From Methanoculleus methanifontis (GTDB lineage: Archaea > Halobacteriota > Methanomicrobia > Methanomicrobiales > Methanoculleaceae): 64,000 bases of DNA. Below, one piece after another: positions 26,260-30,354 of the stretch. A program made the translations under genes and the position numbers. Location of the stretch: contig NZ_VCYI01000003.1 in NCBI RefSeq assembly GCF_030464365.1, positions 124,001-188,000 on the forward strand, in the 5' to 3' direction. The notes under the pieces were generated by a model. The model did no database searches. It saw only the letters and a list, made by a program, of their open reading frames with translations, and was not told the DNA's origin. The number at the start of each line of letters is the position of its first letter. Positions within the stretch are counted from its first letter, which is position 1.

Positions 26260-26488
26260 ATTACCATACTATCATGCTTCACCCTACAAAATGGTGATTG
26301 TCCTGCGGAGACTTGAGCATCGGAACGCAGTGCAAGGCGGCCGAGGAGTCCGGCTGGTGGGAGGTTTTGGGGTATCCACATCGGGGGTTCGGGAATATGC
26401 TTTGTGATGAGAAGTAGCGTCCTGGGCTCAATGAGTATCTGTTATAACCGTGCAAAACGAAAACATAGTGACCGAATAATCCGGGGGT

Positions 26489-26764
26489 ATTATCATTTCC
26501 GATACAACGCAATTCATCGTATACACACTGGAATTTTGCCCGAATTGCGAAATACTCAAAGAGTTCCTGGCCTCCAGGGGAGTTCCTTTCGTCGAGTGCG
26601 ACATGGCGTCGGCCGAAGCGCTGACCGAACTCCGTATGAACGGCATATTTGTTCAGGAGGCGCCGGTTCTGCAGAAGGGTGACGCATTCTACACGTCCGC
26701 CGATCTCTTTAGCGGCGGCACATTCCAGGAAGATCTTGTTGGCGATCTGATCGCGGGGGCATAA
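26489..26764 (+). CDS. Glutaredoxin/NrdH-like redoxin, no standard start codon
   Basis: The frame between TAA at 26480-26482 and TAA at 26762-26764 encodes a thioredoxin-fold redoxin: FIVYTLEFCPNCEILKEFL with the redox pair CPNC, then the cis-Pro region EAPVLQKG. Coding is clear, but no ATG, GTG or TTG occurs before the active site. GGGGGT is followed by ATT at 26489 and again at 26495, so initiation at an ATT is the likely reading. It ends 2 bases before nrdD. NrdH-like proteins deliver electrons to methanogen class III RNR (as shown for Methanosarcina barkeri), so this is its probable reductant. Confidence 0.8.
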   Translation: MIISDTTQFIVYTLEFCPNCEILKEFLASRGVPFVECDMASAEALTELRMNGIFVQEAPVLQKGDAFYTSADLFSGGTFQEDLVGDLIAGA

Positions 26765-26766
26765 GG

Positions 26767-29700
26767 TTGACCCGCAAGTCGACACAGGCAACTCTATTCG
26801 GGGAGTTCGTTCCGACGTTCCCGAAGGTCCGGACCTCGCGGGGCTACCTCCTTGACTGGAATCGGAACCGGATCGTCAAGCAGATCCTGGAGGAGAGCCG
26901 GCTTGTGGAGACCTTCTACGGCTACGAGGGGGCCGACGAGGAGACGGCGAGGGATATCGCCCGGCGGGTCGAGAAGAAGATCCAGATGCTGGGTCTCCAA
27001 TCACTCTCAGGCCCCCTTATCCGGGAGATCGTAAACATGACGCTCCTTGAGCGCGGCCTCGTCCCCTACCGCAACGTGTGCACCCGGGTGGGCACGCCGG
27101 TCTTCGACGCGCACCTCATCGATGTCGGGCGGGGATTCGAGGCGCACGACAACGCCAATCTCCAGGAGAACGCCGAGACCTCGCACAAGAAGAAAGCGGA
27201 CAAGATCAGCAAGGAGCAGTACCTCCTGCAGCTCCCTCCAGAACTCGCAGACCACCACCTTCGCGGCGATCTCCACATCCATGACCTGGAATACTTTGGA
27301 TCCCGCCCGTTTTGCCAGGATTGGGACCTGCGTTACTTCTTCTACTACGGCCTGATGCCTGACGGGAACGGGACGAAGGCCTCGGTCGCCGGCCCCGCGA
27401 AGCGGGCCGAGGTGGCGGTTCTCCACGCGGTCAAGGCACTCGGGTCCGCCCAGACGAACTTCGCCGGTGGGCAGGGCTACTACAACTTCCTCACGTTCAT
27501 GGCGCCCTTCTTCGAGGGGATGGGCTACGAGGAGATCAGGCAGTTGATGCAGATGTTCGTCTATGAGATGACCCAGATGATGGTCGCACGCGGCGGCCAG
27601 GTGGTCTTCTCGTCGGTCCAGCTCTCCCCGGGCGTCCCGACCCTCTGGAAGGACAAACCCTGTGTCTACCGCGGCAAAGTCTGGAACGGAGAACAGGCGC
27701 CGCTCCGGACCTACGGTGAATTCGAGCGCGAGGTCCGGCTCCTCTTCAAGGCGCTGATGGAGGTGATGCTCGAGGGCGACTACTGGGGCAAGCCCTTCTC
27801 CTTCCCGAAACCCGAGATCAGCATCGAGCCCGACTTCCTTAACGAGGACGAGGAGTTCAACCGCGAGCACCCGGATCTTCCCACGTACCAGGATCTCTAC
27901 CTGATGACGTTCGAACTCGCGTCCAAGTACGGCACCCCCTACTACGACAACCAGATCCCCCCCTACCGGGGGGCCGGGGAGGGGATCTCGTGCTACCAGT
28001 GTCTGGCGGCCGACGAGCTCGTCCCGGTGGCGGATGGAGACGGGAAGATTGCCGTCAGGGCGATCAGCGATCTCTTTGATGTTGCAGCAAAGAACGGGAG
28101 ACGGATCGACTCTTTCGGCACGGAGCTCGCCTACTATGACGGACTGGCTCCGAGCGTCGACTTCGATACCCTGAAGTCGTCACTTCGCCCGTTCCGCGGC
28201 GTGATGCGCCAGCGGTACACCGGCGACCTCCTCCGGATCACCCTGGAGTCGGGACGGCAGATCACCGTCACCCCCGACCACCCCGTCTATGTCCTTGATG
28301 GCGGCAGGTTCGCCAGGGAAACGGCAGGAAACCTCAGCGTCGGCGACCACCTGCCGGTGCTGAAGACCGGCGGATTCTGCGAAAGATTGGTCACGGAGAT
28401 CGATGTCGCAGAGACGCTCAAGAAGGCGGGCCACGGCGACGCGATCCGCGTCACCGGGGACGGTGTAAAACTCCGGACCTCCGGGCGGCACGTCCTCCCC
28501 GGTACCCTCCCGGCCGGCCCGGACCTCTCGAAGTTACTCGGCTACTACCTTGCAGCGGGGTGCACCGAGCGGTCCGGACGGCATTACACGGTCAGGTTCT
28601 CGTTTGAGGAATGCCATTCCAACCTTGCGGTGGACACCGCTGCATGCATCCGCGCCGTCCTCGGACATGAACCCCAGATCCGCGAGACAACGGCGGGGAG
28701 CGAGATCGTCGTCAACAGCAAACTCATTCACCTCCTCATCAACGCCCTCGGGTGCGGTTCCTCCGATGACGACAAGTCGGTACCCGATCTCCTCTTCAAC
28801 CTCGACCGCTCCCTGGTGGCCGATTTCCTTGGTGCGGCCTTCAGCACAACCAGAGGGAGCCATTCCGCACGCCGTGCCAGAAGCATCAGGCTGAACGCGG
28901 CCTCCCGGGAAGCGGCCCAGAAGTTGATCTGGCTGACCGGTCGGATCGGCGTCCAGATGAGCTACGCTGAACGGGAAAGGACGGTTTTGCCGCCTCCGGG
29001 CGAAGAAGCCCCGCAAAAGACCTACACCTGCAGAATAACAGATCACAACCAGATAGAGTGGTTCCACGCAGAGACCGGCTACAGTGCTGAGGTGCCCGCA
29101 GGAAGAGAGAGCGGCGGACCTTTCACATCCATCCCGGCGAACGCGGTCGCAGCCGGATGCACCGGTGTTGCCTGTGCAAGCAGGGACAACGATACCGGGA
29201 TAGAGAAGATCCAGGTTACGCTCGTCATTCCACCCCTCGTACGGGAGGAGGAGATCGGGCGAATTGCCCGTGGAGACGTGCACCCGCTCCGTATCCGCTC
29301 AATCGAGCCGGTGGAGTACGACGGCTACGTCTACGACCTCGTTGACGTCGCCGGCACCCACACGTTCACAAACGCGCTCGGGATCGTGACCGGGAACTGC
29401 TGTGCCTACCAGTTCTCATCTCTCGCCGATGAGGACGACGAGTTCGAGGACAAACTCTACTTCCGGGAGGGGAAACACTTCTCGATGGGATCCTGGCAGG
29501 TGATGTCCATCAACTGTCCGCGGGCGGCGTATAAGGCGGAGGGGGACCAGGAACGGCTCTTTGCCGAACTGAAGTCGTTCATGGACATCGCCGTCGACCT
29601 CTACCGGATCAAGCGCCGCTGGATGTCTCTCATCCGGACGAACGGCCGGATGCCGTTTGCGATGCAGCGCCCGAAGGACCCGAACACCGGCGAGCGCGGC

Positions 29701-30354
29701 GCGGTTGCCGTGGATCTCGAAGGGCTCGTCTACACCATCGGCGTGGTCGGGGTCAACGAGATGGTGCAGCACTTCACCGGCCACCAACTCCACGAGTCGA
29801 AGGAGGCGTTCCGTCTCGCCGTCCGGGCAATGACCGAACTCGAGATGTATGCTCGCGAACTCTCGAAGAAGCACAACATGACGATCGCCCTCGCCCGCAC
29901 CCCGGCGGAGACGACCGGGCAGCGGTTCGCGGTCGCGGACCTCCTCGATGAGCGGTTCCGCGACCACGCCATCCGGGTCGTCAAGGGCGACGCCGATGCG
30001 GCGCTCGATATGCTCGGCACGACGCTCGACCTCCCCATTTACTACACCAACGGGACCCATGTCGCCCCGGGAGCCCCGGTGGCGCTCACGAAACGGATCG
30101 AGATCGAGCACATCTTCTTCCCCATCGTGGACGGCGGGAACATCTTCCACGTATGGCTCGGGGAAGCGCGCCCGGACCCCCGGGGGTTGATGGAGATGGC
30201 GATGAACCTCTGCCGGACGACCCAGATCGGTTACTTCGCCTTCACCCGGGATCTGACGGTCTCCCTGAAAGAGTATCGGGAGTTCAAGCCGGCGCGGTCA
30301 GATAAGGCCACGACGGTCGGCCTTTCCCCCGCGGTTGACCAGGCGGACGCCTGA
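26767..30354 (+). CDS. nrdD: Anaerobic (class III) ribonucleoside-triphosphate reductase, intein-containing
   Basis: A 1195-residue precursor; removing the intein (residues 412-877) leaves 729 residues. It has no clear ATP-cone and begins with LFGEFVPTFPKVRTSRGYLL. RNR core blocks include HIHDLEYFGSRPFCQDWDLR, PYRGAGEGISCYQ joined to CCAYQFSS after splicing, and the late RTTQIGYFAFTRDLTV. After that point homologs continue with a zinc-binding four-Cys finger and the glycyl-radical loop; here the protein ends SLKEYREFKPARS plus 22 residues with no cysteine and no glycyl motif. The start is TTG 26767. Converts NTPs to dNTPs without oxygen if the radical Gly is supplied. Confidence 0.9.
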   Translation: MTRKSTQATLFGEFVPTFPKVRTSRGYLLDWNRNRIVKQILEESRLVETFYGYEGADEETARDIARRVEKKIQMLGLQSLSGPLIREIVNMTLLERGLVPYRNVCTRVGTPVFDAHLIDVGRGFEAHDNANLQENAETSHKKKADKISKEQYLLQLPPELADHHLRGDLHIHDLEYFGSRPFCQDWDLRYFFYYGLMPDGNGTKASVAGPAKRAEVAVLHAVKALGSAQTNFAGGQGYYNFLTFMAPFFEGMGYEEIRQLMQMFVYEMTQMMVARGGQVVFSSVQLSPGVPTLWKDKPCVYRGKVWNGEQAPLRTYGEFEREVRLLFKALMEVMLEGDYWGKPFSFPKPEISIEPDFLNEDEEFNREHPDLPTYQDLYLMTFELASKYGTPYYDNQIPPYRGAGEGISCYQCLAADELVPVADGDGKIAVRAISDLFDVAAKNGRRIDSFGTELAYYDGLAPSVDFDTLKSSLRPFRGVMRQRYTGDLLRITLESGRQITVTPDHPVYVLDGGRFARETAGNLSVGDHLPVLKTGGFCERLVTEIDVAETLKKAGHGDAIRVTGDGVKLRTSGRHVLPGTLPAGPDLSKLLGYYLAAGCTERSGRHYTVRFSFEECHSNLAVDTAACIRAVLGHEPQIRETTAGSEIVVNSKLIHLLINALGCGSSDDDKSVPDLLFNLDRSLVADFLGAAFSTTRGSHSARRARSIRLNAASREAAQKLIWLTGRIGVQMSYAERERTVLPPPGEEAPQKTYTCRITDHNQIEWFHAETGYSAEVPAGRESGGPFTSIPANAVAAGCTGVACASRDNDTGIEKIQVTLVIPPLVREEEIGRIARGDVHPLRIRSIEPVEYDGYVYDLVDVAGTHTFTNALGIVTGNCCAYQFSSLADEDDEFEDKLYFREGKHFSMGSWQVMSINCPRAAYKAEGDQERLFAELKSFMDIAVDLYRIKRRWMSLIRTNGRMPFAMQRPKDPNTGERGAVAVDLEGLVYTIGVVGVNEMVQHFTGHQLHESKEAFRLAVRAMTELEMYARELSKKHNMTIALARTPAETTGQRFAVADLLDERFRDHAIRVVKGDADAALDMLGTTLDLPIYYTNGTHVAPGAPVALTKRIEIEHIFFPIVDGGNIFHVWLGEARPDPRGLMEMAMNLCRTTQIGYFAFTRDLTVSLKEYREFKPARSDKATTVGLSPAVDQADA
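28000..29397 (+). other. Intein in NrdD (466 aa) with degenerate LAGLIDADG endonuclease
   Basis: The insert starts at Cys412 after extein ISCYQ and ends at Asn877 before extein Cys878 (CCAYQF), restoring ISCYQCCAYQF. Block A is CLAADELVPVADGDG, block B has TPDH at 502-505, blocks F and G are YDLVDVAGTHTF and ALGIVTGN. The penultimate residue is Gly, not the usual His. The endonuclease motifs read LLGYYLAAGC (590-599) and FLGAAFSTTRGS (687-698); both lack the catalytic acidic residue. Splicing looks possible, homing probably lost. Confidence 0.92.

Follow-up and report, generated by a model that had tools for sequence, protein, structure and literature searches.

The window analysed here is a 64-kb stretch of the Methanoculleus methanifontis genome (contig NZ_VCYI01000003.1, positions 124,001 to 188,000, forward strand), and it contains an nrdD gene for the large subunit of a class III ribonucleotide reductase (RNR) that lacks the C-terminal zinc and glycyl radical domain. 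Anaerobic RNR is normally one protein. The missing part, a zinc site and glycyl loop of the same family, is encoded by a small gene on another contig, and we put at about 0.87 the probability that the two products form a two-polypeptide class III RNR in which the radical domain works in trans. This reading is drawn from sequence comparisons. Complementary halves of one family are present in one genome with no other NrdD match, and the small protein and the NrdG-type activase follow the presence and absence of NrdD across the order Methanomicrobiales. Both halves are under purifying selection, the finger loop is intact, and the split large chains form a single clade in which the TVC zinc ligand has mostly been lost; the diagnostic motifs of the small protein are kept. 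Precedents are the split class II RNR of Pseudomonas aeruginosa and YfiD, which can bear a radical in trans.

The truncated large chain

The nrdD frame runs from a TTG start at 26767 to a stop at 30354 and is interrupted by an intein. Its parts are as follows.

26767..30354, + strand: nrdD large subunit, NrdD3-type class III RNR catalytic chain with no glycyl radical domain (open reading frame (ORF), PF13597, TIGR02487)
26767..27999, + strand: N-extein, ending ...GISCYQ (translation, alignment to intein-free relatives)
28000..29397, + strand: intein of 466 amino acids (aa) (C...GN), within the catalytic finger loop CYQ/CCA (TIGR01445, PF14890)
29398..30351 (frame stop 30354), + strand: C-extein, from the finger-loop Cys pair CCAYQF through the end of the barrel (translation, alignment)
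30262..30351, + strand: 30-residue C-terminal tail in place of the zinc/glycyl domain, after GYFAFTRDLTV

The spliced product is 729 aa in length and carries the finger-loop radical cysteine of class III RNRs (SCYQCCAYQF, as in intact relatives). It matches NRDD (PF13597) with an expect value (E) of 4.7e-128 and TIGR02487 with 455.8 bits (cut-off 326). Of the 562 NRDD columns the match spans 1-510, which leaves out exactly the zinc/glycyl segment at the end, such that this chain does not combine zinc site and glycyl loop as class III enzymes do. Column 1 corresponds to residue 128 of the N-extein, and the residues before it occupy the position of a putative ATP cone. Neither Cys nor an R-V/I-T-G-Y motif is present in the tail, and a six-frame scan of the whole window for [RK][VI][TCS]G[YF] gave zero matches. 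The ORF and its translation thus bear out a preliminary description of this DNA, which had given the same coordinates, spliced length and tail and had noted that the tail holds no Cys or glycyl motif.

A separate zinc and glycyl radical protein

A six-frame NRDD search of the 2.61 Mb genome (99.9% complete) recovered three pieces only: columns 1-263 and 259-510, both in the window gene, and columns 504-562 on another contig (contig 3; E 5e-14). The third piece is a 123-aa ORF (L003:1303-1674, P0001; MGIMNWSPEQLKLAEKYQSLDEIPAGERRYKCHTCHFVVDENPCPHCGETSLEIMCPLDHCDCHHEIVESIEYCPLCGKAVCPECGSHDVMQISRVTGYLQDVAGWNAGKQQELKDRTRYSVV) that corresponds precisely to the final 60 columns of the NrdD family. 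It includes four zinc cysteines (C-x2-C-x4-C-x2-C) and the glycyl loop SRVTGYLQDVAGWNAGKQQELKDR, in which the glycine is Gly98 in P0001 numbering, and its N-terminus has a zinc-ribbon-like part beside its own four-Cys site. CPxC...CPxC and SRVTGY..DV.GWNAGKQQELKDR are kept in the 110 copies examined, with the Gly invariant. Among solved structures, the small protein is matched best by the C-terminus of an anaerobic RNR (8p23, E 2e-6).

The suggestion made earlier, that a different polypeptide supplies the radical loop, is therefore strongly supported by the genome search. A separate glycyl fragment does exist, as had been anticipated, but it is a domain of the NrdD family and not YfiD/GrcA-like: PF01228, the Gly_radical family of GrcA and pyruvate formate-lyase (PFL), has no match in this genome, and assignment of the small protein to the GrcA/YfiD family was rejected as it matches PF13597 instead. 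The second full nrdD that had also been considered was not found, the NRDD search detecting no intact NrdD in this genome, and the nrdG that had been looked for is present, an NrdG-type activase being encoded on a third contig (TIGR02495, 151.8 bits, cut-off 131.15).

The small gene follows pyrF at a distance of ~0.1 kb and in the same orientation. No similar protein was found in the phage collection, and the one similar plasmid record is from Methanomethylovorans hollandica, at its annotated nrdD. Residues 30-52 of P0001 show a weak likeness to the zinc ribbons of RNA polymerase subunit E''/Spt4 (phmmer E 0.05; Foldseek not significant).

Comparison with intact NrdD

Intact NrdD proteins of neighbouring archaeal families have the same SCYQCCA, then ...GYFAFTKDMTVC.(N/D)DFH...GL...C.NCGS..V..LSRVTGYIQ.V.GWN..K.QEL.DR.RY. 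The split large chains end just past the TV that they share with intact chains. The TVC cysteine that opens the zinc/glycyl segment is present in all 27 intact chains and is replaced by Ser in the window chain; among the split large chains (n=56) the residue is Ser in 47, Cys in 6 and Ala in 3. Loss of this ligand (50/56 Ser/Ala) is as expected if the zinc site has moved to the other polypeptide. Ratios of nonsynonymous to synonymous substitution (dN/dS) of 0.07-0.20 for the small protein and 0.05-0.15 for the large chain are far below 1, and both halves are therefore under purifying selection.

All split large chains fall in one clade (support 100/100) within the archaeal NrdD3 group of intact enzymes. 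The large chain was placed in NrdD3 because of its finger loop, its NrdH-like neighbour and published definitions, the subtype being defined by a QCCR/A finger loop (PMC9669993). An NrdH-like redoxin partner and the lack of an active-site Glu are further marks of NrdD3. QCCA, without Met, is found in the window chain and all listed order members, and an NrdH-like redoxin ORF (CPNC) is directly upstream. The system shares with NrdD3 as known from Methanosarcina barkeri (QCCR/A loop, NrdH reductant) the SCYQCCA loop of the intact archaeal relatives, the upstream NrdH-like gene and an NrdG-type activase. However, zinc site and glycyl loop are on one chain in the intact relatives and on the other polypeptide here, and nrdG is unlinked.

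Distribution in the Methanomicrobiales

Within the family, NRDD was detected in 40/40 genomes. The large gene goes no further than column 510-514, and columns 503-562 are matched by a distinct ORF, mostly of 120-145 aa; the genomes without one half (G039 and G014) are both 84-85% complete. Across the order, where NRDD is present in 174/199 genomes, every listed large-chain match that extends to the chain end stops at columns 510-516, apart from two fragmentary or divergent matches, to columns 500 and 524. The glycyl motif is absent from every large-chain tail examined (51 distinct tails, 26-34 aa).

A sequencing error or a recent truncation of nrdD, the former also raised in that description, is ruled out by this conserved end across the order. 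The further proposal that the gene is a non-catalytic or newly truncated form is likewise not supported, given an order-wide truncation, purifying selection and an intact finger loop. The truncation is judged to be ancient and the split to be fixed in nearly the whole of the Methanomicrobiales.

Among the genomes listed as lacking NRDD, all belong to one genus (g20). The small protein was found in 74/74 NrdD-positive order members sampled in the phylum search, named matches including Methanoculleus, Methanoregula, Methanolinea, Methanofollis and Methanospirillum, and in no listed g20 member. NrdG follows the same pattern (17/17 split genomes versus 0/8 g20 genomes). The small gene is preceded by pyrF on the same strand in 108/110 loci, and neither the large gene nor nrdG ever adjoins it in the loci examined. 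In one-contig genomes a distance of 0.09 to 2.3 Mb separates the large and small genes, for example at 375 kb and 282 kb in G011 and at 344 kb and 2,666 kb in G002.

Two unusual arrangements were seen. In one relative the large nrdD is present twice, the copies being ~15 kb apart (G008:C1:285076-302511), and one order member with the split enzyme has in addition a 569-aa NrdD reaching NRDD column 560 (G040:C1:590703-592373).

Free-standing glycyl proteins in other archaea and the origin of the small protein

Outside the order, 11 genomes encode a free-standing protein of 75-180 aa with the same glycyl core and a CPxC...CPxC site (L197-L207, e.g. L197:7765-8124). All 11 also hold an NrdD with its own C-terminal segment, in G481 as two adjacent pieces, and the free-standing protein is therefore not the sole radical source there. 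The obvious guess is that these proteins may be spare parts for RNR, as YfiD is for PFL. They resemble the small protein in the glycyl core and the self-contained zinc site but differ in their N-terminal parts and in the intact NrdD of the same genomes.

The same role could be proposed for the small protein, as a GrcA/YfiD-like spare part that repairs intact NrdD, the truncated large gene being a side product. Its plausibility in the other archaeal families, and a CPxC insertion common to the small protein and the free-standing proteins and absent from intact chains, speak for this. However, there is no intact NrdD to repair in this genome or in nearly any order member (G040, with its extra NrdD, aside), and the large chain is conserved with its active site intact, making this explanation very unlikely.

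The sequences are compatible with an origin of the small protein either by fission of nrdD or by replacement with a protein of the spare-part type. In a tree of the whole terminal segment it groups with the free-standing glycyl proteins, but non-homologous columns are included; a tree of the 41-column core has no resolution, and a one-clade constraint is not rejected (p 0.42), which does not demonstrate one clade. We suggest tentatively, and at less than even odds, that the whole order depends on a glycyl radical RNR with two obligatory chains, in which the resident domain was displaced by a free-standing one of the spare-part type, the kind still found beside intact NrdD elsewhere. If so, the radical subunit might be exchanged after oxygen damage, and a repair mechanism seen only for PFL would have become the normal architecture of an RNR.

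Proposed mechanism and alternative explanations

From these comparisons we infer a physical complex, an order of activation and an active two-chain enzyme. After intein splicing, the window gene would yield the catalytic chain, with a ten-stranded barrel, the NrdD3-type loop SCYQCCA and the substrate and effector sites. The radical-bearing domain would be the separate 120-123-aa protein, with a zinc ribbon at the N-terminus, the four-Cys zinc site and, as glycyl loop, RVTGYLQDV, and would dock at the place taken in an ordinary NrdD by the folded C-terminal domain. NrdG, a radical S-adenosylmethionine enzyme encoded at the third locus, would abstract a hydrogen from Gly98 of the small protein, and the glycyl radical would pass on to the cysteine in the finger loop of the large chain. 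Re-reduction of the active site is predicted to fall to the NrdH-like redoxin whose ORF lies directly upstream of nrdD.

Several observations count against a two-chain enzyme. A class II RNR is also present in 17/17 order genomes tested, so under some conditions cells may do without class III. The joint absence of large chain, small protein and NrdG rests on one genus and, because it is limited to that genus, probably reflects a single loss event. When the small protein is modelled by itself with AlphaFold (mean predicted local distance difference test score, pLDDT, 68.6), only the N-terminal zinc part is confident and the glycyl segment is below 50; a Foldseek search with this model gave no significant match. 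The low-confidence glycyl loop fits a loop that needs a partner, but proves nothing.

The class II enzyme, together with the one genus that lives without class III, also lends something to the idea that the truncated NrdD is non-catalytic, either regulatory or decaying, and that deoxynucleotides come from class II only. Against this are the low dN/dS, the invariant finger loop, the conserved NrdH-like neighbour and the retention of NrdG and the glycyl protein across the whole order, and we regard it as highly improbable. Joining of the two pieces into an ordinary one-chain NrdD by protein trans-splicing, a frameshift or an alternative transcript can be dismissed. The large gene does contain an intein, but this is a complete cis element located in the finger loop, a long way from the C-terminus. 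Trans-splicing was rejected because a motif search of the small protein gave no intein signature. Intein-free relatives are equally split, and the genes can be ~2.3 Mb apart.

The class II RNR ORF (L086:4101-5747 and others) is ~550-615 aa in several split-NrdD genomes, this one included, and 737-745 aa in the genus without class III, with long ORFs also in three split-NrdD genomes; the C-terminal part of the class II enzyme seems to vary.

Relation to known split and in-trans systems

The class II RNR NrdJa/NrdJb of P. aeruginosa is split and needs both chains in vivo; in 2015 it was termed a unique split RNR in a free-living organism (PMC4520616). The two-chain class III enzyme proposed here has in common with it a C-terminal zinc-finger-bearing part on a separate small chain (PMC4520616, PMC9669993), but NrdJa/NrdJb is B12-dependent and encoded in one operon, and its small chain bears no radical and serves only in thiol exchange. 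The window chain was rejected as a split class II RNR (Ribonuc_red_lgC) as it matches NRDD instead, the class II gene of this genome being a separate ORF.

In described class III RNRs, and in the PFL-type glycyl radical enzymes considered here, the radical is on the catalytic chain itself. YfiD can bear the glycyl radical in trans for cleaved PFL, and as of 2021 only the PFL repair proteins YfiD and Y06I had experimental support as in-trans carriers, others being speculation (PMC8683613). The small protein resembles GrcA/YfiD and T4 Y06I as a free-standing protein of ~14 kDa that would bear the glycyl radical in trans to a catalytic chain (PMC8683613). However, those belong to the PFL glycyl family PF01228 and not to NRDD, repair oxygen-cleaved PFL without being the sole radical source, and coexist with the intact enzyme that they repair, which has no counterpart here. 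The open-access literature, a scope that excludes the key NrdD3 papers (Wei et al. 2014/2015), yielded no description of a split class III RNR.

With a class III RNR that is split by nature, the radical domain could be activated, labelled, mutated and swapped apart from the barrel, so that installation of the radical, damage by oxygen and repair could be tested directly. For annotation, split nrdD genes resemble truncations, and the small gene resembles a stray NrdD fragment.

The intein and the upstream NrdH-like ORF

Both intein_Nterm (TIGR01445) and Intein_splicing (PF14890) exceed their cut-offs in the window nrdD, and in intein-free relatives CYQCCAYQF is continuous over the insertion site. 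The LAGLIDADG-like stretches of the intein (LLGYYLAAG and VADFLGAAFSTTRG) are without the usual acidic residues, and the homing endonuclease therefore looks degenerate. In relatives, nrdD is additionally interrupted by an insertion near NRDD column 60, which lengthens the ORFs to as much as 2008 aa.

Directly upstream of nrdD is one further feature.

26480..26764, + strand: NrdH-like glutaredoxin/thioredoxin ORF (CPNC; PF00462 Glutaredoxin just over cut-off)

Its frame is open after a stop at 26477 and has no in-frame ATG, GTG or TTG start; translation may begin at an ATT or ATC codon near 26489-26495. The NrdH-like gene adjoins or overlaps nrdD in split and intact relatives alike, and relatives of the ORF have a similar GGI(T/I)IS start region.
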